Assembly (NCBI RefSeq): GCF_012222305.1
Contig: NZ_CP035730.1
Coordinates: 62,001 to 126,000, forward strand
Direction: 5' to 3'
DNA: 64,000 bases
Source: Sulfolobus sp. S-194
GTDB taxonomy: Archaea > Thermoproteota > Thermoprotei_A > Sulfolobales > Sulfolobaceae
A program made the position numbers and the translations under genes. Each line of letters starts with the position of its first letter. The stretch's first letter is position 1. The notes beneath the pieces are model-generated. The model saw only the letters and a list, made by a program, of their open reading frames with translations, had not been told where the DNA came from and searched no databases. This document shows, piece after piece, positions 1,937-61,428 of this stretch.

Positions 1937-2026
1937 TAACATTTTACGCTAATTTATGATAAGATATATCTTAAGCTACTAGCCCTCATAATTAATATTC
2001 TATTTCTTACTGACCTCCTCCACGCC

Positions 2027-3229
2027 CTAAAGGGCAATGGTTCCCTTAGAGCGGTTCATAGGTTTGCGGTTTACCGCCTTCATTCTCATCACTTCATAGC
2101 TAGTGAGTGCTTTAGACACCCACCCCACTCTGTTCGTCCAGCGGTAGACCACGGGCTGGGTCTTCAGCCCAATTACCCCTATCCCTCTGTGGAAGTTGCC
2201 CTCGCTTCCTCGGGACTCGGGGATATGTAGAATATTTATTGCTCCGTTTAAGTCCGCATTTATAACTTTCCCCATGCGGGGACACTTAAACAAACCACGT
2301 TTAACACGCCCACCCTCGTGGGCTTCCCCGCATAGGGAACAAGTCGTAGAAGTATAAGATTCATCCACTTTAATAACCCTTATCCCTAGTTCCTCCCCAA
2401 TCTCCTCAAAGCGTTTAATGATATAACCATAGTTCCAGAAGTTCACAGTGAGTTTGTTACCGTGGTTTTGTGTTATCTCTTTAGGATAACCTACAACCAC
2501 CTCACTTATCCCCTTCAACTCCTCCATTATTTTCCTAACCATACTGTTCAAAGCATGCTTTAGAAACCTCTTCCTTTTATCATACAACAACTTCAATTTC
2601 CTACTCCTCCTTTGCCCATGCCTTGCTAAAACTTTTTGAATTTCACTTATCCTCTTGCTATAATACTCATAGTGAGAGAGTACACTACCACCTTTAAAAA
2701 TATACCAGCTACCGTCCTCAACATAGACAGTTGCCAAATTAACAATCCCTAAATCCACTGAAGCCCTTAAATTACCCTCAACTTTCACATTATTTTCTAC
2801 CTCCATTGGAATATGAGCATACCAACTCCTCCTAGCCTCATTATAAATTACCTCTAATCTACCTTGTTTCCCATGCCATTTGAGTTCTCCTTTGAACTTG
2901 AGGGATAGTTTGAAGTCCTTTAGGAAAATCACCCTTTCTTTCTCATTAACCTCGTAACGGTCTTTTCTAATGATTATTATCAGCTTGTATTTTCCAATTT
3001 TATCCTTCCAGTACCCTGGAGGTCTAGGTTTAAACCATCTTGGCAATTTACCCTTCTTCTTCTCCTCGATTAATGAGAAGAAACTCCTCCAGTTCTCAGC
3101 GTTCTTCCTAGCAACTTGTTGTGTGTTAACCTTTAATATTTGCTTGTACTTCTCGTATACATCCTTTTCTGTTTTAGAGAAATCGACCCTCTCGCCTTTC
3201 TTAAACTGTTGCATTCTTAACCAGTTCAC
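2027..3229 (-). CDS. tnpB: TnpB, RNA-guided RuvC-like nuclease of the IS200/IS605 element
   Basis: A 400-residue protein, a normal length for TnpB. The RuvC-I aspartate is in ASVDLGIVNLATV (about residue 157), the zinc-finger cysteines are in CSLCG (about 293) and CPRMG (about 311), and the RuvC-III aspartate is in NADLNGAINIL (about 324). The canonical RuvC-II position reads VVVGYPKEI with glycine where many TnpBs have glutamate; a glutamate is found later in VDESYTST (about 286), as in clades with a relocated catalytic residue. The second zinc-knuckle position reads C-x2-M. The family cleaves DNA guided by an RNA from the element's right end and helps the IS persist. The frame is intact, so the protein may be functional even though its tnpA is not. 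Confidence 0.88.
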   Translation of the reverse strand: MNWLRMQQFKKGERVDFSKTEKDVYEKYKQILKVNTQQVARKNAENWRSFFSLIEEKKKGKLPRWFKPRPPGYWKDKIGKYKLIIIIRKDRYEVNEKERVIFLKDFKLSLKFKGELKWHGKQGRLEVIYNEARRSWYAHIPMEVENNVKVEGNLRASVDLGIVNLATVYVEDGSWYIFKGGSVLSHYEYYSKRISEIQKVLARHGQRRSRKLKLLYDKRKRFLKHALNSMVRKIMEELKGISEVVVGYPKEITQNHGNKLTVNFWNYGYIIKRFEEIGEELGIRVIKVDESYTSTTCSLCGEAHEGGRVKRGLFKCPRMGKVINADLNGAINILHIPESRGSEGNFHRGIGVIGLKTQPVVYRWTNRVGWVSKALTSYEVMRMKAVNRKPMNRSKGTIAL

Positions 3230-3302: not shown

Positions 3303-3722
3303 TTAACTATGTTGGTCCTCTTCGCCTTCCTTCACCCACTGTTCCTCAATGTATTTTCTTATTGTCTCGCTTGATACGTTACCAGCTGTTGATACGAAGT
3401 AGCTTCTAGTCCAGAGTTTTCCTCCCGTATATTTTCTTAGCTCTGGGAATTTCTTCAAAACCAGTCTAGCTGATTTTCCTTTGAAGTAGTTTGCTAGATA
3501 TGATGGTGCGTATCTTGGTGGGCAGTTTACGAAGAGGTGTATGTGGTCTGGCATTACTTCAAGGGCTATTATTTCGCAACCGAGTTCTTCTGCAATTGAT
3601 TTCAAAACCTCTTTAGTGTATTCAGTAACATCTCCAACTAACACGTCTCTACGGTACTTAGGAATCCATACGAAATGGTAGTTGCATAGGTACTTTGTAT
3701 GTCTTGTAGATTTTTATTTCAC
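3303..3722 (-). pseudogene. tnpA: TnpA Y1 transposase with nonsense codon at position 3
   Basis: Read from GTG at 3722, the frame would give a 139-residue IS200 TnpA. It contains the HUH motif in PDHIHLFV and the catalytic tyrosine in IRKYIEEQ. Codon 3 is TAA (3714-3716). The remnant copy of the same family at 55984 reads GTG GAA TAC AAA where this one reads GTG AAA TAA AAA, so TAC to TAA is the simplest explanation. The next in-frame start is GTG at 3644, which would drop about 26 residues including the first beta strand (NYHFVWIPKYRR). Probably inactive, unless a different start or readthrough is used. Confidence 0.8.
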
Positions 3723-3759: not shown

Positions 3760-3776
3760 CGCCCCTAGAAGGGGCG
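3760..3776. repeat. Subterminal hairpin of the IS200/IS605 left end
   Basis: CGCCCCTAGAAGGGGCG folds into a seven-base-pair stem, the kind of structure TnpA recognises at IS200/IS605 ends. An almost identical hairpin sits at about 56024-56040 in the remnant copy. Confidence 0.8.
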
Positions 3777-3787
3777 AGGCTTGTCGT

Positions 3788-4180
3788 TCATTTTGTTAAA
3801 ATTCTTTTATTATGGTTATGGAGTTCTAGATATGGAAACATTTGATAAAGTTCGTAAGCAAATGAAATTGATGAGAAAGTTAAATGCTGAAAATATTCTC
3901 TGCTTAATTCCAAATGAGAATCTAAAAAACCATCAGGGTAAATTCGGATATGAATTTCCCAAATTCCTATTTTCTTAGATAAAGAATACATCTCACCTTT
4001 TCTTATTTCTAGAAGAGTCTCCTTAAAACCGGCTCTTTTTAAGTCTCTTAAAAGTCTTTCAATCTCACTTGTATAAAGTCTTAAGTTACCCTCTACCTTT
4101 ACATACTCTTTAGGCAAAATTTCAGAAGTAAAATCATCATAAATTATCTTTTTAGGTAGCCTAATGTTTATTTCGTCCAT
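3788..4180 (-). pseudogene. Hypothetical protein, 3' end replaced by IS200/IS605 left end
   Basis: A 130-residue frame starting ATG at 4180 (MDEINIRLPKK). It is soluble, charged, and has no recognised domain; the segment IWEIHIRIYPDGFLDSHLELSRE suggests an alpha/beta fold. The stop codon (3788-3790) lies inside the ten bases TTCATTTTGT shared by the two IS200/IS605 copies. The last two codons and the stop are therefore probably supplied by the insertion sequence, and the original C-terminus is lost. Whether the truncated product still works is unknown. Confidence 0.5.
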
Positions 4181-42136: not shown

Positions 42137-43444
42137 TTACTTTATGTGGGCTTCTTTGCGAGCTGGATTAGTTTCCTTATATTGTGCAACATGACTTTTT
42201 CCATACTTAATCCATAATATCATAGAAAGAATTGTTGAGACAGTACTAATTAATAAAAACACTGTAAAAGCTGTTGGGAAACCAAATATTGAAGCAATAT
42301 ATCCCATTGTTGGTGGAATCAACAGACCGCCAGCAGATCCTAGTCCTCCTACTAATCCAGATGCTCCGCTTACGGCGTCTGGTGAATATTTTGGAACAAG
42401 CTTATATACGGCTCCATTTGCAATACCCATTCCTAGCGCCATAATTATTTCAGCAAGTACTGAAGTTGGTAAGGCATATGAGATTATAAATATCAGACTT
42501 CCTATAATCATTATAAAATATGAAATCATCGAAACTAATTCTCCTCCAACCTTATCTGACATATAACCACCGTAAACTCTAATTAATGCAGTAATTAATG
42601 AATACAATACACCGGTTAATAATCCTGCTTCAATGGGAGTAACATGTAAGAACCCTTTCCAGTAAGTTGGTAACCACTCAGTTAATGCTTCAAAACCACC
42701 GAAAGACGTAAAGTACATGAATACTAACGCCCAAGTTATGAGGTTCTTGGAACTTCTCTTAAGTGATTCGGAAAGGGATTTCGATGGTACTACCTCATAA
42801 CCTTCCTTCAGAGCTAGAGCTTTAGCTTCTTCCCAACTTTTACCTTCTTTGATGTACTTAATAAAAGGCGGATTGATTGCGATTACATTATAAATAATAA
42901 TCATTATAAGTAGAAATATAGCCCAAGCAACATAGGCATAAATTAAACCTATAGATGTTAAAGCAAATGGAAGAATTACTGTAAATATTCCTGGTGCTGT
43001 ATTACCTAATCCAGCATAAATTCCTAAAGCGGTACCTTGTTTCTTTTGTGGGTAGAAATAAGAGACGTATGTTATGCCACTTGAAAACGTGGAAATTCCC
43101 GTACCTGCAAGTGCTCCAAAAAATAAGAGAAGATCATATATTGTACCGCTAGGAAGTGTTTTTATTTGCTCAAGAGTAAAGATTATACCAATCATTCCCA
43201 CTAGACCTATGACTAATTGAATAGTTAGAGTATGTTTTCCTAATTTATCTACTAAAAGTGAAAATGGAATCCTTAGAAACGCTCCTGTAACTAGTGGAAT
43301 AGCTACTAACCAAGAACTCTCTACTAATGTCAAATGAAGAATCGGACTAATCTTGAGTGTTGTTGTTCCAAATAAGGCAACAGCTGCAAATCCTGCGAAA
43401 AATGCCATTGTAGCTGCAGTTAATCCTCTACCTCTTACATCCAC
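42137..43444 (-). CDS. narK: NarK-type MFS nitrate/nitrite transporter
   Basis: A 435-residue MFS protein with 12 helices. It contains the nitrate-porter-like FSSGITYVSYFYPQKKQGTALG and GLGNTAPGIFTVILPF segments and a matching repeat in the second half (SGASGLVGGLGSAGGLLIPP), which are typical NNP-family glycine-rich signatures. It is divergent from narGHJI with a shared 274-nt control region. It would bring nitrate in, take nitrite out, or both. The start ATG 43444 has a TATA-like box 33-41 nt upstream. Confidence 0.82.
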   Translation of the reverse strand: MDVRGRGLTAATMAFFAGFAAVALFGTTTLKISPILHLTLVESSWLVAIPLVTGAFLRIPFSLLVDKLGKHTLTIQLVIGLVGMIGIIFTLEQIKTLPSGTIYDLLLFFGALAGTGISTFSSGITYVSYFYPQKKQGTALGIYAGLGNTAPGIFTVILPFALTSIGLIYAYVAWAIFLLIMIIIYNVIAINPPFIKYIKEGKSWEEAKALALKEGYEVVPSKSLSESLKRSSKNLITWALVFMYFTSFGGFEALTEWLPTYWKGFLHVTPIEAGLLTGVLYSLITALIRVYGGYMSDKVGGELVSMISYFIMIIGSLIFIISYALPTSVLAEIIMALGMGIANGAVYKLVPKYSPDAVSGASGLVGGLGSAGGLLIPPTMGYIASIFGFPTAFTVFLLISTVSTILSMILWIKYGKSHVAQYKETNPARKEAHIK

Positions 43445-43476
43445 ATTTTATCGCCAAGAAATAATTCTTTTTCTAC

Positions 43477-43485
43477 ATTTATATC
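43477..43485 (-). promoter_or_regulatory. TATA box of narK
   Basis: The minus strand reads GCATCGATATAAATG, 33-41 nt before the narK ATG. The palindrome at 43493-43506 sits just upstream of its BRE position. Confidence 0.5.
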
Positions 43486-43492
43486 GATGCTT

Positions 43493-43506
43493 CCTAATTA
43501 ATTAGG
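43493..43506. promoter_or_regulatory. Palindrome in the narK-narG control region, operator candidate
   Basis: CCTAATTAATTAGG is a perfect 14-bp palindrome just upstream of the narK BRE/TATA. Confidence 0.6.
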
Positions 43507-43538
43507 GAAAAAGTTTTTAAACAAGTTTCGTAATTTAT

Positions 43539-43557
43539 GATATAAAAAGTTTATATC
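43539..43557. promoter_or_regulatory. Second palindrome in the narK-narG control region
   Basis: GATATAAAAAGTTTATATC has perfect 8-bp arms around AAG. It may be an operator or a bidirectional TATA-like region. Confidence 0.55.
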
Positions 43558-43684
43558 TAAAAAAGTATATCTATTTGCGTATTTATGTACTTTCCCACAC
43601 ATTTATACATATTACTTATCCTTTGTAGATTATTAGTCTTTTTTATTCTTAATTAAAAATCTTTCTCCTCATACATTAGGATTT

Positions 43685-43696
43685 GTTTTTAATAAT
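43685..43696 (+). promoter_or_regulatory. TATA box of narGHJI
   Basis: GTTTTTAATAAT ends about 23 nt before the narG ATG at 43719, the spacing of a leaderless archaeal promoter. Confidence 0.45.
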
Positions 43697-43718
43697 TTAA
43701 GCGAGATTTTATTGATAA

Positions 43719-46700
43719 ATGGTGTGGCAGAAATTCAATTACGATAACAGAGGATGGGAGTCCTTTTATAGGAACAGATGGCAATATGATAAGGTAGTAA
43801 GAAGTACTCATGGCGTTAATTGTACTGGTTCTTGCAGTTGGATGATTTATGTTAAAGATGGCGTTATAATGACTGAAATGCAAGCTCTAGATTATCCTAT
43901 TATTAACCCTGAGATACCACCTTATGAGCCCAGAGGATGTCCTAGAGGAGCCAGCTTTTCATGGTATGAATATTCGCCACATAGGATAAAATATCCTTAT
44001 GTTAGAAGAGCATTACTTGAATTATGGAGAGAAGAGCTAAAAAAGACAAGTGATCCCATAAAGGCGTGGGAGGGCATCGTAGAAGATCCTAATAAGGCTA
44101 GGAAGTACAAGGTATTAAGAGGTAAAGGCGGATTTGTTAGAGCTTCGTGGGATGAAGTTTACGAAATAATTTCTGCAGCCTTAATATATACTATTAATAA
44201 ATACGGACCAGACAGAATATTTGGCTTCACACCCATTCCTGCAATGTCTATGGTAAGTTACGCTGCAGGAACAAGATTCTTGTCATTAATAGGAGGAGTA
44301 GTAATGAGTTTTTATGATTGGTATGCTGATTTACCCATTGCCTCACCTCAAGTATGGGGAGAACAAACTGATGTTCCAGAAAGTGCTGACTGGTTTAACG
44401 CTACATATATCATTGATTGGGGAACTAATATTCCACAAACTAGAACTCCAGATGCTCATTTCTATTCCGAGGTGAGATATAGAGGTGCTAAAGTAGTTGC
44501 CATAGCTCCAGATTATGCCGAATACGTAAAGTTTGCAGATTTATGGATTCATCCAAGACCAGGTACTGATGGAGCTCTTGCTTTAGCAATGGCTCATGTT
44601 ATTGCCAAAGAATTTCATGTAGACAGAGAAGTCGAATATTTCAAGAATTATATAAAGAAATATACTGATGCGCCATTTCTTGTAATCCTAAAAGAAGAGA
44701 ATAATAGATTATTGCCCGAAAGATATCTAAGAGCTTCAGATATATTTACTAATGTAGATAAAGCTGAGTGGAAATTAGTAGTATTTAACTTAAACACTAA
44801 TTCTCTCTCAATACCAAACGGTAGTATAGGTTTTAGATGGAGCAATGACAAGAAGTGGAATTTAAAACTCAAAGATAGCATAACTGAAAGAGATATTGAA
44901 CCTGCACTTACAATGTTAAATATACATGATAAAATAGTAAGTGTAAGCTTCCCAAGGTTTGATCAGAAAGGATATGTTGATAGAGAAGTCCCAGTAAAAA
45001 TAATCAAAACGATTGATGGAAGATCCGTTTACGTAACCACAGTTTACGATTTACTTCTAGCGAATTTAGGTGTTAAGAGGGAAGACTTGAAAGGGTATCC
45101 TAGTAGTTATGACGAAGATGAACCTTATACTCCAGCTTGGCAGGAGAAGATTACTGGAGTTAGGAAAGAACTAGTTATTCAAATAGCTAGAGAATTTGCC
45201 CAAAATGCTGAAGAAACCAAAGGTAAGTCACTAGTCTTAATGGGCGCTGGAGTTAATCACTGGTTTCATAGTGATTTAATTTATCGTGCAATTATAACAA
45301 TACTAATGCTGATTGGTGCTATTGGAGTTAACGGAGGAGGTTGGGCTCACTATGTAGGGCAAGAGAAGGTTAGGCCTTTTGAAGGTTGGAATACTATAGC
45401 TTTTGCAAAAGATTGGTTACCTGTTACTAGACTACAAAGCACTGGATTATGGGTTTATATGCACACTGATCAATGGAGATATGATGAGGTTACAATGGAT
45501 AAGATTACAGTAGGAAAAACTATGTATGATCATCCAGCAGATTATGCAGTAATGTCAGTGAAGAAGGGTTGGCAACCCTTTTATCCACAATTTAGCACAA
45601 ACCCGCTAAACCTCGGTAAAAGCGTAGACGATATAATAAATAAATTAGAGAACGGAGATACATCCTTCTCAATCTCAGATATTGATAATCCTATTAATTT
45701 CCCGAGGATATTATTTGTTTGGAGGAGCAATCTACTATTCTCAAGCGGTAAGGGTAGTGAATATTTCTTAAAGCACCTCTTAGGTACTGAAAATTCTGTG
45801 GAGAATAAAGATGAGGTTGCTAAGAACTACGTGAAAGAGATAAAGTGGGTAGAGTCAGCTCCAGAAGGTAAGCTAGATTTACTAATTGATATAAACTTTA
45901 GGATGGATAGTACTGCTTTATACTCAGATATAGTTCTACCTGCTGCTACATGGTATGAAAAATACGATATAAGCTCTACAGATATGCATACTTTTGTTCA
46001 TCCGTTTAATCCAGCCATTAACCCGCCATGGGAGGCTAGAAGTGATTGGAAAATTTTTGTGGGTTTAGCAAAGAAATTCTCTGAAATGGCCTCTAAGTAC
46101 TTACCAGATAAAGTTATAGATGCCGTATATGTTCCGTTTATGCACGATACACCAGGCGAACTTGCGAGTCCAGAAACAGAATTAGACACCGTAGATCCAC
46201 CAAGTAGTGGTGTAGTAGCAAGACGAGAAAAATTAATCCCCGGAAATAATATGGGTAATATAGTCTTAATAGAGAGACATTATTCCAAGATTTATGAAAT
46301 GATGATAACATTAGGGCCTTTAGTTAAAGACAAAAAATTATCATTCTTTGGTATAGAGGTTAACTACTCTAAAGAATATGAAGAGTTAAAAGAAGAACTA
46401 GGAAGTTTAGAAGAAAGGCCACTATTAGATGAGGATAAGAAAGTGGCTGAGACCATGTTGAGATTAAGTGGAGCTACCAATGGTGAAGTTTCTGTTAGAG
46501 AATATAAATATCTAGAGGATAAAACGGGACTTAACTTTGAAGATCTTAGAGAAGGGATAGAAGAGATAAAGATTACGTTTAATGATATTACAGCACAACC
46601 ACGTAGGGTAATAGATTCTCCAATAGAATCTGGGATAGTTAAAGGAGGTAGGACTTATTCGTCATTTGCGTTTAATGTTGAATATGAAGTTCCATGGAGG

Positions 46701-47255
46701 ACTTTATCTGGTAGACAACACTTTTATTTAGATCATCCATGGATTAGAGAACAAGGTGAACAATTACCGGTATATAAACCCCCATTAGACATTGTGAAAG
46801 TACCTCAATCTGAAGGGGTATTAATTGCTAGATATCTATCTCCTCACGGAAAGTGGCAGATCCACACTACCTTCATGGATAATCTAAGAATGCTTACTTT
46901 ATTCAGAGGAGGTCCGGTAATTTGGATAAATGAAGAAGATGCTAAGAGTATTGGAGTTAAAGATAATGACTGGGTAGAGGTATTTAACGAGAACGGAGTC
47001 ATAGTTATTAGGGCAGTAGTTACTAATAGAATCCCAAGAGGCACGGTTATAATATATCATGCACAAGAAAGGACAATATACGTTAAAGAGGCTAGAAACG
47101 GAAAAATGAGTGGATCACATAATGCAGTAACGAGAGTTCATATAAAGCCCACTTGGCTCATAGGAGGTTATGCACAGTTATCGTTCTTTTTAAATTATTA
47201 TGGTCCCGTTGGAACTCAAAGAGATACGATAGTCGCAATTAGGAGGTTGGGATAA
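43719..47255 (+). CDS. narG: Respiratory nitrate reductase alpha subunit NarG, no Tat signal
   Basis: An 1178-residue molybdopterin catalytic subunit. The FS0 cluster ligands are His31, Cys35, Cys39 and Cys74 (motifs HGVNCTGSCSW and PRGCPRGAS), with the same spacing as E. coli NarG. The Mo ligand is Asp204 in FYDWYADLP, followed by GEQTDVPESADW. It starts WQKFNYDNRGWESFY, the bacterial-type N-terminus, and a TAA stands directly before the ATG, so there is no twin-arginine signal. The product is therefore predicted to face the cytoplasm, unlike the Tat-exported NarG of several other archaea. It reduces nitrate to nitrite with electrons from NarH. First gene of narGHJI. Confidence 0.95.
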   Translation: MVWQKFNYDNRGWESFYRNRWQYDKVVRSTHGVNCTGSCSWMIYVKDGVIMTEMQALDYPIINPEIPPYEPRGCPRGASFSWYEYSPHRIKYPYVRRALLELWREELKKTSDPIKAWEGIVEDPNKARKYKVLRGKGGFVRASWDEVYEIISAALIYTINKYGPDRIFGFTPIPAMSMVSYAAGTRFLSLIGGVVMSFYDWYADLPIASPQVWGEQTDVPESADWFNATYIIDWGTNIPQTRTPDAHFYSEVRYRGAKVVAIAPDYAEYVKFADLWIHPRPGTDGALALAMAHVIAKEFHVDREVEYFKNYIKKYTDAPFLVILKEENNRLLPERYLRASDIFTNVDKAEWKLVVFNLNTNSLSIPNGSIGFRWSNDKKWNLKLKDSITERDIEPALTMLNIHDKIVSVSFPRFDQKGYVDREVPVKIIKTIDGRSVYVTTVYDLLLANLGVKREDLKGYPSSYDEDEPYTPAWQEKITGVRKELVIQIAREFAQNAEETKGKSLVLMGAGVNHWFHSDLIYRAIITILMLIGAIGVNGGGWAHYVGQEKVRPFEGWNTIAFAKDWLPVTRLQSTGLWVYMHTDQWRYDEVTMDKITVGKTMYDHPADYAVMSVKKGWQPFYPQFSTNPLNLGKSVDDIINKLENGDTSFSISDIDNPINFPRILFVWRSNLLFSSGKGSEYFLKHLLGTENSVENKDEVAKNYVKEIKWVESAPEGKLDLLIDINFRMDSTALYSDIVLPAATWYEKYDISSTDMHTFVHPFNPAINPPWEARSDWKIFVGLAKKFSEMASKYLPDKVIDAVYVPFMHDTPGELASPETELDTVDPPSSGVVARREKLIPGNNMGNIVLIERHYSKIYEMMITLGPLVKDKKLSFFGIEVNYSKEYEELKEELGSLEERPLLDEDKKVAETMLRLSGATNGEVSVREYKYLEDKTGLNFEDLREGIEEIKITFNDITAQPRRVIDSPIESGIVKGGRTYSSFAFNVEYEVPWRTLSGRQHFYLDHPWIREQGEQLPVYKPPLDIVKVPQSEGVLIARYLSPHGKWQIHTTFMDNLRMLTLFRGGPVIWINEEDAKSIGVKDNDWVEVFNENGVIVIRAVVTNRIPRGTVIIYHAQERTIYVKEARNGKMSGSHNAVTRVHIKPTWLIGGYAQLSFFLNYYGPVGTQRDTIVAIRRLG

Positions 47256-47256
47256 A

Positions 47257-48741
47257 ATGAAGGTATTAAGTCAATTTATGGGCGTATTTAATTTAGACAA
47301 ATGTTTAGGCTGTAATGCTTGTACCGTAGCATGTAAGAATTTGTGGACCAACAGAGAAGGAACGGAATATATGTACTGGAATAATGTAGAGACTAGACCT
47401 GGACCCGGATATCCATTAGAGTGGGAAGATCAAGAAAAATACAGAGGGGGTTGGATTTTAACTAAAGATGGCAAACTAAAATTAGCCATTGGAGGAAGAA
47501 TTGCAAGACTTTTAGAACTCTTCCACAATCCTTATCTACCTACTATTGATGATTATTTTGAACCCTTTACTTATACATACGAAAACTTGGTTAATGCTAA
47601 AGAGTCAAGTAAACAACCAGTAGCTGAACCCGTCTCACTGATAACTGGAAAAAGAATAGAACTGAGGTTAGGACCCAATTGGAATGATGATCTTGCGGGA
47701 GGTACAGAGGCAATATTAAAGGATCCTAATTTCAAGAAATTAGAAAATAAGATAAAGACAGATTTCGAAAATGCCTTTATGATGTATTTACCCAGAATAT
47801 GTAACCACTGTCTCAATCCTGCATGTGTTGCCGCTTGTCCAGCAGGAGCTATGTATAAGAGGGAAGAGGATGGTATAGTTCTGAATGATCAAAATAAGTG
47901 TCGTGGATGGAGATTCTGTATTGCAGCTTGTCCTTATAAGAAGGTTTATTATAACTGGGTTACTGGGAAGGCTGAAAAATGTATATTGTGCTATCCAAGA
48001 TTAGAAACTGGTCAGATTCCGGCTTGTTTTCATGAATGTGTTGGAAGAATTAGGTACTTAGGCGTAGTTCTTTACGATGCTGATAGAGTAGAATGGGCTG
48101 CCTCTGCAAGAGATCCTAAAGAAATAATAGATAGAATGCTCCAAATAATACTGAATCCCTTCGATGAAGAAGTTATAAAGAATGCTAAAGAAAATGGTGT
48201 TACAGATGATTTCATAGAAGCCGCACAGAGAACTCCCGTTTATAAGATGGTTAAGATCTGGAAAATAGCCTTACCATTGCATCCAGAATTCAGAACACTA
48301 CCGATGATATGGTATATACCACCTCTAAGTCCGCTAGTAGAAAACATTAAATTAAAAAGCGATGAGGAATTCTTCCCTATTGTAGACCATATGAGGATAC
48401 CGATAGAATATTTAGCTAGTATGTTTACGGCCGGTGATACTGAAAGGGTAAAGAATATATTAAAGAAATTAATTACATTAAGAATTTATATGAGACAAAA
48501 AAGACTAGGCAAAAAAGTTAATGAAGAGTTACTAAAAGAGGTCTCATTAACGGAAAAAGATCTTGAGGAGATGTACAGAGTTTTAGCTATAGCTAGGTTA
48601 GAAGACAGGTTTGTAATTCCGACAGCACATAAGGAAAAAGCTCTAAAGATGTTTGAAGAAAGTTTAGCACCAGAATATGTCCAAGGTAGTAGAGGATTAC
48701 AACAAACAATTAGAAGGGATTTGAGGTTGAAGAAAACATGA
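47257..48741 (+). CDS. narH: Nitrate reductase beta subunit NarH, four Fe-S clusters
   Basis: A 494-residue protein. The cysteine motifs are KCLGCNACTVAC, ICNHCLNPACVAACPAGA, KCRGWRFCIAACPYKK and KCILCYPR..ACFHECVGR. The tryptophan in CRGWRFC marks the [3Fe-4S] cluster, as in bacterial NarH. It passes electrons from NarI heme to NarG. It starts one base after narG ends. Confidence 0.94.
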   Translation: MKVLSQFMGVFNLDKCLGCNACTVACKNLWTNREGTEYMYWNNVETRPGPGYPLEWEDQEKYRGGWILTKDGKLKLAIGGRIARLLELFHNPYLPTIDDYFEPFTYTYENLVNAKESSKQPVAEPVSLITGKRIELRLGPNWNDDLAGGTEAILKDPNFKKLENKIKTDFENAFMMYLPRICNHCLNPACVAACPAGAMYKREEDGIVLNDQNKCRGWRFCIAACPYKKVYYNWVTGKAEKCILCYPRLETGQIPACFHECVGRIRYLGVVLYDADRVEWAASARDPKEIIDRMLQIILNPFDEEVIKNAKENGVTDDFIEAAQRTPVYKMVKIWKIALPLHPEFRTLPMIWYIPPLSPLVENIKLKSDEEFFPIVDHMRIPIEYLASMFTAGDTERVKNILKKLITLRIYMRQKRLGKKVNEELLKEVSLTEKDLEEMYRVLAIARLEDRFVIPTAHKEKALKMFEESLAPEYVQGSRGLQQTIRRDLRLKKT

Positions 48742-49238
48742 ACTTATTACAAGTTATAGGAGATCTTCTCGAATATCCTAGAGAATGGATAAAACAAAAA
48801 GAGACGATTATGAATCTAGTGAGTGAGTGTTTATCTCCTAACAAATATCTTATTATTGAATTCTTAAAGACTGCGTCAAATTACAAAGAGCTTGATCTCG
48901 AGGAGATTTATGTAAGTACTTTTGATAGTAATGATTATACAACACTCTATATGACCTATTATATAACTGGAGAGGAAAAGAGTAGGACAAAGACTCCTAA
49001 AAGAGGTTTTCTATTAGCTTGGCTAAAAAGTAGGACAAAGATCAACAGTAATGAGTTACCTGATTATTTACCCCTTTTGTTAAAATACCTAAGTAATACT
49101 GATGACGAGGAAGTCAAAAAATTAATACAAGAACCTATACAGATTCTTTCGGATAGACTTAAAGAAAAGAAGTCCATTTTTTATCCTCTCGTGCTTGCCG
49201 CATATTTAGAACTTTATGGGGGTGTAAATGGAGGATGA
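48738..49238 (+). CDS. narJ: Nitrate reductase assembly chaperone NarJ (short form)
   Basis: A 166-residue helical protein of the TorD/NarJ type: LLQVIGDLLEYPREWIKQ at the start, then DYTTLYMTYYITG and FLLAWLKSR. It is shorter than bacterial NarJ (about 236 residues). It overlaps narH by ATGA and narI by four bases. It would hold NarG during Mo-cofactor insertion and membrane docking. Confidence 0.82.
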   Translation: MNLLQVIGDLLEYPREWIKQKETIMNLVSECLSPNKYLIIEFLKTASNYKELDLEEIYVSTFDSNDYTTLYMTYYITGEEKSRTKTPKRGFLLAWLKSRTKINSNELPDYLPLLLKYLSNTDDEEVKKLIQEPIQILSDRLKEKKSIFYPLVLAAYLELYGGVNGG

Positions 49239-49909
49239 ATTACTTCTGGGTAATTTATCCTTATGTGGCTGTTACTATATTTTTCGGAGGATACATTTAT
49301 ACATATTTAACGAGGAGGTATTATTGGTCTGCGAGATCTTTTGAATTACTAGCAAAACGTACACATACATACGCATCAAACTTCTTTCACTACGGAATTG
49401 TTATAGTCTTATTAGGACATTTAGTAGGAATAGCAATACCAGCCTCAGTTCTACTAGCAATAGGTCTCACATATAGCCTTCACGAAGCAGTAGCATTCTA
49501 TTTGGGAGCTCTTTTCGGAATTATAGCAATAATCGGACTAGCTTGGCTGCTTGCACTATCGTATTTGACTAGAGCCTCTGCATCCCTCTCAGTTACCGAC
49601 CACTTAGTATATGGTGTATTAATCTTGGTGATAGCTACGGGGCTCTATAATACATTAATTGTTCACCCAGATTATATGAGTACAGTAGCACCGTGGTTCC
49701 AAGGATTAATAACATTTCACCCAAATGAATCTCTAATAGAGAAAGCACCTTTAAGCTTACAAGTTCACGTCGCGTTATCTTTTCTACTATATGCGTTATG
49801 GCCTTTCTCTAGATTAGTCCATGTATTCACATTCCCAATAACATACTTATGGAGACCTTACATAGTTTACAGAGGATATCGTTACTCTAGAGCCATTAAG
49901 AAAAGATAA
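49235..49909 (+). CDS. narI: Nitrate reductase gamma subunit NarI, diheme cytochrome b
   Basis: A 224-residue membrane protein with five helices. Heme ligand pairs are visible: H-x9-H in HYGIVIVLLGH and H-x17-H in VHVALSFLLYALWPFSRLVH, the same spacings as E. coli H56/H66 and H187/H205. It takes electrons from the quinol pool (caldariella-type quinone in this order) and passes them to NarH. Last gene of the operon. Confidence 0.93.
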   Translation: MNYFWVIYPYVAVTIFFGGYIYTYLTRRYYWSARSFELLAKRTHTYASNFFHYGIVIVLLGHLVGIAIPASVLLAIGLTYSLHEAVAFYLGALFGIIAIIGLAWLLALSYLTRASASLSVTDHLVYGVLILVIATGLYNTLIVHPDYMSTVAPWFQGLITFHPNESLIEKAPLSLQVHVALSFLLYALWPFSRLVHVFTFPITYLWRPYIVYRGYRYSRAIKKR

Positions 49910-50506: not shown

Positions 50507-53500
50507 CATAATCCTCAATGGAATTGAAAGCTTCTATCCATCCTAAAGGACCTGGAGGATTAGATACTGACCATAATCCTCAATGGAATTGAAAGAAAAA
50601 TTACGAGATTATTATAATTGGGGTGAGCTAAATGGACATAATCCTCAATGGAATTGAAAGACCTACGTAGTACGTCATGTTTTTTCACTATAAAAAACTT
50701 GTCATAATCCTCAATGGAATTGAAAGTTTTATCAAAATCGTATCTTATAAGACTCTTCGGAGATGACATAATCCTCAATGGAATTGAAAGTGTAACCTTG
50801 AACTTCTTAGCGACTTGATCAATTTCACTGACATAATCCTCAATGGAATTGAAAGTTATAAAAGATTAACGGCAAGCCTCGCCCTTCAGGGCCATAATCC
50901 TCAATGGAATTGAAAGAAATTATGTAGAAATAAGTGGCAACATTATAAGTGCTTTAACATAATCCTCAATGGAATTGAAAGGCACCAGAAGGTCCAACTA
51001 TTAATACGTGTACTCTGGATATTCCCATAATCCTCAATGGAATTGAAAGCGAGTATAAGGGGCATAGCCCCTTAACCCCATCTTACTACTTTAGCATAAT
51101 CCTCAATGGAATTGAAAGCCAGTACGCGTAATCGAGTAACTCATTTATGATAGTGTAGACCATAATCCTCAATGGAATTGAAAGCTCTTTCATGAACGGA
51201 ATGAATTATACAGTTTCTGTTTGTTCATAATCCTCAATGGAATTGAAAGTTAATTCACAGGCTTTCAGACAAAAACAAGTTTGTAGTAGCTGCATAATCC
51301 TCAATGGAATTGAAAGAGGAGCGATTGGACTAAGTTAAAAAAATTTTTAACTTAATCATAATCCTCAATGGAATTGAAAGACGATAGCAACTAAAGGTGG
51401 TGCATGGGAAGAATACTATCCACATAATCCTCAATGGAATTGAAAGTCTCACGATAAATTGTTACGAATGTGTAATATACTGGTGTTGCATAATCCTCAA
51501 TGGAATTGAAAGTAAAACGATAGACGGTGAAGAGTATGTCGAGTTCTTGTAACATAATCCTCAATGGAATTGAAAGTTATTTCCTTCAAGTGAGATATAT
51601 CACATATGACTAAATACATAATCCTCAATGGAATTGAAAGAGATATTGCTATATCCAAAATCCTACCACCTGATTGACTCCATAATCCTCAATGGAATTG
51701 AAAGAAATGTCGGATCAGGCGTTTGTCAAGATGCCCAGGGAAACATAATCCTCAATGGAATTGAAAGGTTAAACTTAAGGGGCTTGAGCAAGATGTGATA
51801 GAGCTTTCATAATCCTCAATGGAATTGAAAGAGTTTACTAAAGCAAAATTGTAAAAAGGATTAATGATCCAGCATAATCCTCAATGGAATTGAAAGACAA
51901 AAAGAAATCATTGTTCGATGAGCCCATTCTTTTTCAAACATAATCCTCAATGGAATTGAAAGATTTTAATTATTTTATGAACGTCTCGTCATTCAGAGAA
52001 TTCATAATCCTCAATGGAATTGAAAGCTTCCATTAATTCAGAAACTTTTGGTGCTGGCTTTATTTTAACATAATCCTCAATGGAATTGAAAGCCTCGAAG
52101 GTCATCTGCTTCTTAGCTACCGTCTCGACGACATAATCCTCAATGGAATTGAAAGGACAGAGACCACAACGACGAGACAACTCGACAGAGGTCCGGAGAC
52201 ATAATCCTCAATGGAATTGAAAGTGGATATTCGACACTCATCCGCCAGATTATATTCGTACAAAAGCATAATCCTCAATGGAATTGAAAGGCATTAAAGA
52301 ACGCAACTCCTGTCTTTCCGTATCTACATAACATAATCCTCAATGGAATTGAAAGGCAATCCCCGCACGTCGTGCCTTTGCCCACCTTAATAAGGTGGGC
52401 ATAATCCTCAATGGAATTGAAAGTTAGAGATCTCTATAGGATTATTTACAAGCTGAGGACGGGCATAATCCTCAATGGAATTGAAAGTCAGAAAGAGAAC
52501 CCCCGCAAAAGTTCTTAGAAACAACTTCACATAATCCTCAATGGAATTGAAAGATAGCTTTAGGACCTACTAACTGTAACTTCTAACTGAACCTCATAAT
52601 CCTCAATGGAATTGAAAGAGTGTGTAGCAAAAGCTTTTTTATCGTTATCATCAATTACACATAATCCTCAATGGAATTGAAAGTAGGGGAGATGACCCAT
52701 ACGGGGGCTGTCTGGGGCTCCGCCGGGGCATAATCCTCAATGGAATTGAAAGGTTCTAATACACGGCCAGTACTTAAAACAGCTCCTTTTCATAATCCTC
52801 AATGGAATTGAAAGTTACATCTGGTAGTTCATAAATCGTTCTGAATAACGATACATAATCCTCAATGGAATTGAAAGTCTCTGTTAAGAACAGAATTTTC
52901 CCATCTGGTGCTTCTTCTTCTCCATAATCCTCAATGGAATTGAAAGCAGATGGTTGGTTACCCTTTAACCCGTAAGTCCTATCGAGTGCATAATCCTCAA
53001 TGGAATTGAAAGATGATAAGTGAGAAAGAGATAATACTGAAGTTGATAGCCACATAATCCTCAATGGAATTGAAAGGGTCCGTGTGCTGGTGTGCAAGTA
53101 CTAAATGCATCCCGAACATAATCCTCAATGGAATTGAAAGTTCTATATACTTAAAAATAGGATTAACTAATGATAGGACGTCATCTTTCATAATCCTCAA
53201 TGGAATTGAAAGCTAAGCATGTTTTCTAATAATGTGTTTGCTGTACTGTTTTTACATAATCCTCAATGGAATTGAAAGTATCTCTCTTCAGATTCTTTAT
53301 CCGAATATTTACTTCCGGCATAATCCTCAATGGAATTGAAAGTCTTCATAATGAGTAACATAAATGTAACTCCTTCTGAAAGTCATAATCCTCAATGGAA
53401 TTGAAAGTTTATTCATAATAAGCAGCTTTAGGACCTGTGCTTTCTAACATAATCCTCAATGGAATTGAAAGGAAAGTTTAGTTGTAAAAGACCCTAAGTA

Positions 53501-55682
53501 CCTGGGCAAGTTTATCATAATCCTCAATGGAATTGAAAGTCTCATCTACCTTTAGTTTATTGATTGCTTGAGAAACGGCCACATAATCCTCAATGGAATT
53601 GAAAGCTTCTTAGTTTCTACATGGATAAATGAAATATAGGCCCTCTCATAATCCTCAATGGAATTGAAAGACCCTTTCGTCCCAATCTGGAAATATATCG
53701 CTTGGATCTACCATAATCCTCAATGGAATTGAAAGAAATATTAACGGATAAAGAAATTGAAGAGTTGAGAGATCACATAATCCTCAATGGAATTGAAAGC
53801 CTTAGGGTCAGAAACACCCTTCAACATCTCAGCCAAACCCCTCTCATAATCCTCAATGGAATTGAAAGTCCCATGTGAAGAATACTTTTCTATGAGGTTA
53901 TTCACAACATAATCCTCAATGGAATTGAAAGAATAAATAGGCCTCAAGGTCTTCCAAGTTTCTGTTTCTGACATAATCCTCAATGGAATTGAAAGATTCA
54001 GGTTGCTTAGCTATTTTCGAGTTTATAACAAAATTTACATAATCCTCAATGGAATTGAAAGGTTTTTTGAGGCTTAGGTTTAAGGAGTAAGTTTAGTAGG
54101 TCCCATAATCCTCAATGGAATTGAAAGAGCCCTCTCTTCCGTTCCCCCTTACTAGCTCAATAGCCGCACATAATCCACAATGGAATTGAAAGTACATTAG
54201 GGAGATCCAATTCGCGGATTTCGAGGGCGCCGCATAATCCACAATGGAATTGAAAGCAACAGATAGACCTGATCAAAGACAAAATCATACGGGCTCCCAT
54301 AATCCACAATGGAATTGAAAGAGCTTACTTAGCGGTATAGGTAATTTAATAGTATTTGCGCAACATAATCCACAATGGAATTGAAAGTCTCCTCCCTGAG
54401 ATAGGACCTCTACCGCCTTCAGGACCTCCCATAATCCACAATGGAATTGAAAGGCAACTCAGCAGTAGTAGTAAACATACTGACGGCTCCCCGCCATAAT
54501 CCACAATGGAATTGAAAGCATTTATCAGGCCTTGGACGGCCTCGTAGATCTCGGCAAACATAATCCACAATGGAATTGAAAGTTAACGCATATCGATGTG
54601 ATTTGGCTACCGTTCGGAAGGTACATAATCCACAATGGAATTGAAAGTTGAAGAGAATTTCAGAAATACTATTACAAGGGTGCATGACATAATCCACAAT
54701 GGAATTGAAAGTGGACTATTGTGCCGTTCGGCAATGTGTATGCTTCGCCTCATAATCCACAATGGAATTGAAAGAAAGAAAATTCCAATAAAATGATATT
54801 GATCTCAAGATCGAACATAATCCACAATGGAATTGAAAGATTGAGAGTGGCTCTAATAGAAGCCGTAAGAAGTGTCATTACCATAATCCACAATGGAATT
54901 GAAAGCATTAAGAATCTTAATGTACTTGAATGCGCTAAGTTTGAACATAATCCACAATGGAATTGAAAGCAGGAGCAGACAAGTATATTTTCCAGGGGAC
55001 GCCACCCAATTTCATAATCCACAATGGAATTGAAAGCTTCTACGGACATGAGCATTTGTTGTTATTAGCAGACATAATCCACAATGGAATTGAAAGACCT
55101 ATGAAGTTCTGTATACCCGTATTGGCTATAGCTCCCGCATAATCCACAATGGAATTGAAAGCTTGATGATACTTCTTAGCTATCTTTTTCAGCCAACTCA
55201 TTCATAATCCACAATGGAATTGAAAGTTCTTTCTTTCCTCTAACCCTTTAACCTATTTCTTAATTTCAACATAATCCACAATGGAATTGAAAGACCTCTT
55301 CTTCTACATAATGAAATAGAGGTAAGCTATCTTCATAATCCACAATGGAATTGAAAGTTCTTTGGTGGTAAGGAGCTGGTTTCTCTCTGTAGGCGGTAAC
55401 ATAATCCACAATGGAATTGAAAGAATATTCTACTACTATCTTAGCTACGAGGACATGGAAAAACATAATCCACAATGGAATTGAAAGACTGGGTGGGGAA
55501 AAACTAGGCTAGCAATCCATATAATGCATAATCCCCAATGGAATTGAAAGTGTTTTTCTACAGTCACTTCTTTTCCGAAATTTTCTTGGTATGTCATAAT
55601 CCCCAATGGAATTGAAAGTGATGTCCTATTGCGTTTATACTGTGCTTTACAATAGTACCATAATCCTCAATGGAATTGAAAG
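50507..55682 (+). CRISPR. CRISPR array: 80 repeats of 24 nt, 79 spacers, four repeat alleles
   Basis: I read 80 repeats starting at 50507 and ending at 55682. They begin CATAATCC, have one variable base, and end CAATGGAATTGAAAG. Repeats 1-56 have T at the variable ninth base, repeats 57-77 (from 54169) have A, repeats 78-79 (55527, 55595) have C, and repeat 80 (55659) has T again. Spacers are 37-48 nt. The repeat resembles subtype I-A arrays of Sulfolobales. No cas gene lies in the window. The leader is to the left. The distal end is followed by an IS200/IS605 remnant rather than a typical degenerate repeat. Confidence 0.97.
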
Positions 55683-55702
55683 GATATTGCACAATTTACA
55701 AA

Positions 55703-55984
55703 TCTAGGAATTTCTTCAAAACTAGTCTTGCGGATTTTCCTTTGAAGTAGTTTGCTAGGTATGATTATGAGTATCTTGGTGGACAGTTTACGGAGAGGCG
55801 TATGTGGTCTGGCATTACTTCTAAGGCTATTATTTCACAACCCAATTCCTCAGCGATTGACTTTAGCAACTCTTTAGTATATTCAGCTACTTCATTAACT
55901 AGCATGTCTTTATAGTATCTTGGTATTCATACAAAATGATAGTTGCATAAGTATTTTTACATGTCTCGTTGATTTGTATTCCAC
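55703..55984 (-). pseudogene. tnpA: Truncated, mutated tnpA
   Basis: Starts GTG at 55984 (GTG GAA TAC AAA TCA). It has a one-base insertion after about eight codons, TGA in place of Trp in the HFVW segment, another in-frame stop, and Arg in place of the second His of the HUH motif. It ends at about 55703, so the C-terminal part with the catalytic tyrosine is absent. Inactive. Confidence 0.85.
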
Positions 55985-56063
55985 AGTATACTTTAGAGTA
56001 TTCAGATATTTTTAAGCTACATCTCCGCCCCTAGAAGGGGCTAGGCTTAAACCTTCATTTTGT
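55703..56063 (-). mobile_element. IS200/IS605 remnant abutting the CRISPR array
   Basis: The left-end tip TTCATTTTGT (56054-56063), the hairpin CCGCCCCTAGAAGGGGC and the first two thirds of tnpA are kept; the rest of tnpA and all of tnpB are missing. Homology to the element at 2005-3797 begins at about 55703, 21 bases after the last CRISPR repeat. Confidence 0.85.
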
Positions 56064-59521: not shown

Positions 59522-60130
59522 GTGGAGAGGTACTTAACACCTAGCGAAGTTGCTGAGATCTTTGGAATGAGTAGGAGTGGTGTTATTAAGTGGATTAGGG
59601 AAGGGAAAATAAAGGCTATTGAGGTTAACGGTAGGTGGAGGATACCTTACAGTGAGGTTGAGAGGTTAATAACTAGAAAGGGAAGGGTTAAGCAAGTAGC
59701 GATTTACTCTAGAGTTTCATCAAACACACAGAAGGACGACTTAGAGAGACAATTAAACGCGTTGAAGGAATGGGTTAAGAAAACTTTCGGGGAAGTGAGT
59801 GTGATAGAAATTAAGGACATAGGTTCTGGGTTGAAAGAAGATAGAAGAGGGTTAAAGAAACTCATAGAGTTAGCCAAGAGGAGGCAGATCGATGTGGTAG
59901 TAGTAGCATACAAGGACAGGCTGACACGTTTCGGTTTCGAATACCTCGTAGAGTTATTCAAAGCTTACGGGGTAGATGTTATAGTAGCATTTCAAGATGA
60001 GCCAAAGGACTACATGCAAGAGCTAGTGGAGGACTTTGTAGAAATCGTAAAGTCCCTTGCTTCAAGAATTTACGGCCATAAGTACGAGAAGGTGGTTAAG
60101 TGTGTTGAAGACGTTGAAAAGGACAGTTAG
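59522..60130 (+). CDS. tnpA: IS607 TnpA serine recombinase
   Basis: A 202-residue protein. The N-terminal MerR-like helix-turn-helix is LTPSEVAEIFGMSRSGVIKW. The recombinase domain begins VAIYSRVSSN, with the catalytic serine in RVSS, and continues DLERQLNALKEW and AYKDRLTRFG. It starts at GTG 59522. The frame is intact. It catalyses element excision and insertion through a serine-DNA link. Confidence 0.9.
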   Translation: MERYLTPSEVAEIFGMSRSGVIKWIREGKIKAIEVNGRWRIPYSEVERLITRKGRVKQVAIYSRVSSNTQKDDLERQLNALKEWVKKTFGEVSVIEIKDIGSGLKEDRRGLKKLIELAKRRQIDVVVVAYKDRLTRFGFEYLVELFKAYGVDVIVAFQDEPKDYMQELVEDFVEIVKSLASRIYGHKYEKVVKCVEDVEKDS

Positions 60131-61428
60131 GATAGAAAGCGACCCTCTCAACTACTGGAAGTACCACGTTCTTAGAGAGATTGAGGGATACCAAAGAAAC
60201 ATGGTTAATGAAATGATTGACGTAATACTCTCAGAGGGCTTGCCCACAACAAGGAAGAAGTTGCACGAGAGGTTTTACAACTACTACAAGGAGAAGTACC
60301 CTTTCTTACCTTCAAGGGTAATTGAAGGTTCTTACATTGTAGCTGGCAGGATTGTTAAGAGCTTTAGGGAGAGGAGGAAGAAAGGGCTAACAAGGAAGGA
60401 TAAACCGGAGTACAAAAGGGTAATGATCACTATTCCTAACACGATTAATTGGAGGTTTAATAGAATTTCTGTTAGCGTTTTAACTCACAAGGGTTGGGTT
60501 GAGATCCCCCTCAAGTTCACTAAACAATTTACCCGCTACGTATATGAAGGTTGGAGGGTTTCGCAAGAGCTTAAGTTAAGGCTAGTGGGTATGAAAGTCC
60601 TAGTTTGGCTTACTTTTGAGAAGGAGGTTGAGGTTGAAACTAGGGAAGGTAATTATATTTCTATTGACGTTAACGAGAATAATGTTACTTTAGCAGTTTT
60701 TGAGGGTTTCAAGCTTAAGGAGTTGATGCGTTATGAGAGTGGTTTAGGGAGGATTATCGTTAATTACTCCATAAGAAGGGAAGAAATTACTAAAGGATAT
60801 TCAACTAAGGACGAGCTAATTAAGAAAAAGCTGAGGAGATTAAGGGAGAGGGAGAGAAAAATTGACGTGTTAAGGAAGACTGTTAAGAGGATTGTTGATT
60901 TGGCTAGAGATTTGAATGCCAAGATTGTGGTTGGTAAGTTTTCCTCTAAGACTAAGGATAGGATGGGAGGGTAATAAAAATAGTAAGCTTAGGCATAGGA
61001 TTCACCAATGGAGTGTGGTTAAATTCGTGGAGATGTTAAATACTCAGCCTATTGAGGTTGAGGCGGTCTCTGAATCATATACTTCCTCTCTTAACCCGTT
61101 CACTGGAGAGAAGTTAAAGAAAAGTAAGCAGTTCATTGAGAGAGTTGTCAAGGTTTTTAACCCCTACCTGATGACGAGCACTGCTCACGAGGGTAGGGGG
61201 ATTAAAGTTTTCAAGGTAAATGCTAGGTACTTGGAAAGCGGTGAAGTATTGTTAGAAAGGGATTCTATTGCACCTCTTAATCTCATAAAAAAGGTGGATG
61301 GGAGGGTAGTGGTGTTTCCCTCGACTAGCCCCAATGAGTTGAGGGTGAAGGTGTATAATCCCTTAATAGGGGTGCCCGTGGTGGAATTAGAAGTAATTAA
61401 AAGTAAGGAGAAGTTATGCCACGGGTAA
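60102..61428 (+). pseudogene. tnpB: IS607 tnpB, frameshifted near codon 288
   Basis: Reading from GTG 60102 the frame runs to a stop at 60974; the rest continues in another frame (NKNSKLRHRIHQWSVVKF onward) to 61428. A single missing or extra base in ATGGGAGGGTAATAAAA explains it. RuvC-I is in SIDVNENNVTLAVF (about residue 188), the RuvC-II site reads IVVGKFSSK (glycine, no glutamate) while a glutamate occurs in VSESYTSS, and RuvC-III is in ERDSIAPLNLI. No zinc-finger cysteines are present. Probably inactive unless the shift is decoded. Confidence 0.78.

Follow-up and report, generated by a model that had tools for sequence, protein, structure and literature searches.

The window analysed here, a 64,000-nt stretch of the genome of Sulfolobus sp. 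S-194, holds a CRISPR array and an IS200/IS605 element with both of its ends. The features that concern us are as follows, in window coordinates.

50507–55682, plus strand: CRISPR array of 80 repeats, CATAATCC(T/A/C)CAATGGAATTGAAAG, from repeat and spacer parsing
50832–50855, plus strand: repeat 5′ of spacer 6, from array parsing
50856–50892, plus strand: spacer 6, very probably an IS200/IS605 left-end copy, from alignment to the left end (LE)
50893–50916, plus strand: repeat 3′ of spacer 6, from array parsing
2010–2045, minus strand: right-end (RE) hairpin GGGAACCATTGCCCTTTAGGGCGTGGAGGAGGTCAG, from sequence
2027–3229, minus strand: tnpB, RNA-guided nuclease family (NF040570, 150.3 bits, cut-off 100)
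3303–3644, minus strand: tnpA, Y1 transposase of the IS200 family (NF033573, 126.7 bits, cut-off 55)
3762–3801, minus strand: LE and hairpin of the IS200/IS605 element, from sequence and alignment to spacer 6

The array places 79 spacers of 36–48 nt each between its 80 regular repeats, a trait of type I-A CRISPR-Cas in Sulfolobales (CCN subfamily). Its leader probably lies on the left side, with repeat variants gathering at the right end. Spacer 6, TTATAAAAGATTAACGGCAAGCCTCGCCCTTCAGGGC (37 nt), lies exactly at 50856–50892, the position first given for it in the initial annotation, and its hairpin part, GCCCTTCAGGGC, occupies 50881–50892. The 5′ handle of the crRNA, ATTGAAAG, is presumably supplied by the repeat at 50832–50855, as in Sulfolobales crRNAs generally. 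An unusual structure of the spacer 6 crRNA was considered and rejected, as its fold energy ranks only 57th of 263. Spacers 14, 16, 31 and 43 of the array match viruses (SSeV, STIV2, SIRV9 and an SSV), and in each case CCA immediately precedes the protospacer on its 5′ side. Read from these sister spacers (CCA in all four, and CCT for one spacer of a sister array), the PAM of the array is CCN.

The array adjoins a narGHJI nitrate reductase operon with a NarK-type transporter (42137–49909), and its distal end, where the last repeat ends at 55682, is abutted by a decayed IS200/IS605 copy (55699–56060) that consists of a tnpA fragment (84% identity to the tnpA of the window) and an LE hairpin. Further on, at 59522–60974, an IS607-type serine transposase precedes a tnpB-like ORF that is divergent and scores weakly.

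The type I-A system of this genome is complete. Its cas set lies at G000:C1:140570-156901, 23–39 kb from the array, where Csa5, Cas7/Csa2, Cas5a, Cas3′, Cas3″, Cas4/Csa1, Cas1, Cas4 and Csa3 all score over their cut-offs; the same locus contains a Cas6-like gene, whose Cas6 match falls under its cut-off. More arrays with the same repeat are found around this locus.

Spacer 6 resembles the left end of the IS200/IS605 element in the window, whose reverse strand reads TTTTAACAAAATGAACGACAAGCCTCGCCCCTTCTAGGGGCGG. The stretch that the two had been claimed to share, CAAGCCTCGCCC, is indeed present in both, and the likeness runs longer than was claimed: TTATAA-AAGATTAACGGCAAGCCTCG-CCCTTC-AGGG in spacer 6 aligns with TTTTAACAAAATGAACGACAAGCCTCGCCCCTTCTAGGG in the LE, covering almost the whole length of the spacer. 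The local score of this alignment is 17, a value that no dinucleotide shuffle out of 20,000 attained (maximum 13), while the runner-up among the 79 spacers of the array scores 10. Outside the array, the LE at 3762–3801 is the best place for spacer 6 anywhere in the 64-kb window. The label ‘left end’ is also correct, with tnpA and then tnpB following on the minus strand and the RE hairpin at 2010–2045, and the proposed likeness in hairpin shape was borne out by GCCTCGCCCTTCAGGGC in spacer 6, which matches ends that lie beside tnpA or tnpB.

Relatives of the spacer are widespread. Its last 22 nt, with ≤3 mismatches, are present in 20 of the 31 family genomes, frequently in tens of copies and at up to 47 per genome, whereas a reversed-pattern control for the same core gave 0 occurrences. 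Several of the copies that we fetched adjoin tnpA or tnpB, and the hairpin is also found in mobile elements of Sulfolobales and other thermophiles, namely SMV1, HAV2, ATV, pNOB8, pHVE14 and pMGB1. Most IS ends match the first 14 nt of the spacer weakly. Over its full length, the spacer is matched best at 31/37 positions by a genome of another family in the same order (G055) and at 30/37 by virus SMV1, so that an IS end with >90% identity and a PAM, which the initial annotation had envisaged as support, was not reached. The exact donor was not found when phages, plasmids, IMG/VR, contigs of GTDB genomes and 229 genomes of the class were searched with the whole spacer and with parts of it. The observation that had been named as speaking against an IS origin, a better match to some unrelated gene of a virus or plasmid, was absent from phages, plasmids and IMG/VR.

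The left ends of tnpA+tnpB elements read (TTTAA or TTGAC)-AAAATGAACGRCAAGCCTCGCCC, and those of the solo-tnpB elements in genome G008 read about TTAT-AAAGATTCGGAAAACCTCGCCCTTCAGGGC; spacer 6 starts TTAT-AAAAGATT and continues with AACGGCAAGCC. Like the solo-tnpB (OrfB) left ends of G008 (L212, L231, L239-L242), spacer 6 has a TTAT-like start, AAAGATT, CGG and CCTCGCCCTTCAGGGC, the last in most of the copies. Unlike them, it carries additional bases in AAAAGATTAACGG and reads CAAG in place of their AAAA, and the G008 copies are therefore not its source. With the tnpA+tnpB left ends (the IS of the window, the SMV1 IS and ISSis2 of pHVE14) it shares AACGRCAAGCCTCGCCC and the hairpin, but these ends carry AAAATGAACG where spacer 6 carries AAAAGATTAACG, and their stem is usually longer (CCCCTTCTAGGGG). 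Thus, spacer 6 mixes features of both types of left end, which places its donor lineage outside those sampled. Published transposon-adjacent motifs (TAMs) in S. islandicus are TTTAA for tnpA+tnpB elements and TTTAT for solo-tnpB elements (PMC10640517). The TTAT start of spacer 6 agrees with this TTTAT and with the G008 copies, and by analogy with the published motifs TTAT at 50856–50859 is possibly the TAM.

The origin of spacer 6 in a related IS200/IS605 element, as first claimed, is well supported by its sequence, its hairpin, the multi-copy relatives and a published precedent. We consider it very probable that the type I-A system acquired the spacer from foreign DNA bearing an element of this family and that the spacer covers the left end of that element, even though no exact protospacer was found in the collections searched and identity to known ends is ≤31/37. 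The core of spacer 6 is a simple G+C-rich hairpin, and the likeness might therefore be a matter of chance, with a common hairpin motif derived from an unrelated virus or plasmid sequence; this is disfavoured by the shuffle tests and by the reversed-control count of 0, and the similarity continues 5′ of the hairpin through AACGRCAAGCC, making chance a highly improbable explanation. It is just as improbable that spacer 6 aims at an IS copy in the host chromosome itself, which would amount to autoimmunity. Related ends do occur in the host (C1:65772, 373706, 1215356, 1866225 and 1916944), but they match spacer 6 at 17–27 of 37 positions, with 3–5 matches in the 8-base seed, and lack CCN, so the guide should ignore them and the spacer is probably not self-targeting. 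In addition, a pattern search placed the first 23 nt of spacer 6 (≤3 mismatches) nowhere else in the chromosome, and on these grounds self-targeting was rejected for the assembled chromosome.

It is possible, though we favour it less, that the donor was a solo remnant or a tiny non-autonomous derivative, with the LE arm fused to the RE arm and neither tnpA nor tnpB. SMV1 48381–48408, among the closest relatives of the spacer (30/37), is such a solo LE-RE hairpin, and the best relative, in G055, likewise carries an RE-type tail, GGGGAGG.GGTCA. However, spacer 6 ends at GGGC, before intact left ends (GGGGTAAAG) and solo ends (GGGGAGGAGGTCAG) diverge, so that the two kinds of donor are not distinguishable.

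If spacer 6 was acquired from a foreign IS200/IS605 element, it probably begins in the end of the target-side motif (TTAT) and runs through the LE arm into the terminal hairpin, the greater part of which it includes, and the carrier of the donor element may have been a plasmid or virus. The spacer 6 crRNA would then guide the type I-A complex (Cas5a, Csa2, Csa5 and Cas3) to a copy with a flanking CCN. Should TTAT be the TAM, the PAM would fall in the flank of the donor element and the guide would read one specific insertion. With the PAM and the first seed bases on the junction of the insertion or beyond it, this insertion should be recognised by the guide, whose pairing with the host’s own diverged copies should fail. 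We raise, as a rather doubtful idea, that junction-spanning spacers (spacer 6 and A68p_53, described below) let the type I-A system attack one particular IS200/IS605 insertion, with PAM and seed in the flank or TAM and resident copies spared. The case suggests how a defence system might keep a record of elements whose family is also present in the host, yet not attack itself; insertion-specific reading, if shown, is what would be new here.

Other spacers are also linked to such elements. A sister array of the same genome contains spacer A68m_60 (G000:C1:157875-157916; L068:11875-11916, minus strand), which matches tnpB of the conjugative plasmid pNOB8 at 42/42 positions with a CCT PAM, has weaker matches to transposase genes of ATV, ATV2 and pHGQ25, and whose first 32 bases have no other place in the chromosome. 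Spacer A68p_53 (L068:3469-3508, same genome), TAAGATCGAAGCATTAGA-ATGACAAGATGGACAACAAGCC, apparently crosses the junction of a target flank and an IS200/IS605 LE arm; a search for its donor gave no match in phages or plasmids. Independent spacers on IS200/IS605 terminal hairpins occur in another genus (L217, G020:C1:1000641) and in the same genus (L237, G029:C1:2633566). The G020 spacer reads the opposite strand, and its CCC PAM would come from the hairpin’s own stem. When 645 spacers were scored, the three hairpin spacers reached 21–23.5 and shuffled sets never exceeded 13, while A68p_53 scored 13.5, barely over this limit. In all, four spacers in three Sulfolobaceae genomes document that type I-A systems in nature keep a record of IS200/IS605 ends, and a further spacer is exact against a plasmid tnpB.

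Uptake of this kind has a laboratory precedent, in which S. solfataricus P2 acquired 24 new spacers from the IS200/IS605 element ISC1467 of pMGB1 (with SMV1) upon infection (PMC3839810, Table 7). Our mapping of these spacers found CCN at 23/24; the LE hairpin is covered by 1C38, and the RE hairpin by 3E12 and 3E13. The terminal hairpins were rejected as an acquisition hotspot: 3 of the 24 spacers overlap them, against 11.4% expected from CCN positions (P(≥3) = 0.53), with no enrichment. Like the ISC1467 spacers, spacer 6 belongs to a type I-A system, with CCN as the PAM of its array, and very probably targets IS200/IS605. Unlike them, it comes from a natural array and had no donor found, whereas theirs is known; 1C38 and spacer 6 read opposite strands of the LE. 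We regard spacer 6 as a clear if ordinary instance, from nature, of an already known process (PMC3839810), and the known picture is left unchanged.

Solo hairpins that join an LE arm, AAAATGAACGACAAGCCTCGCCC, directly to an RE-type arm, GGGCGGGGAGGAGGTCAG, were seen in SMV1 (L012) and at L036, L039, L043 and L053. No transposase gene was detected beside these five, which are possibly minimal non-autonomous elements or scars. The hairpin is also strikingly conserved across domains, in that the exact 22-mer GGCAAGCCTCGCCCTTCAGGGC occurs at eight places (L001-L008) in Desulfurococcales, ANME archaea (Methanophagales) and bacteria (Betaproteobacteria and Chloroflexi), where the chance expectation, calculated from the size of the collection, is ~0.03 in 257 Gb.
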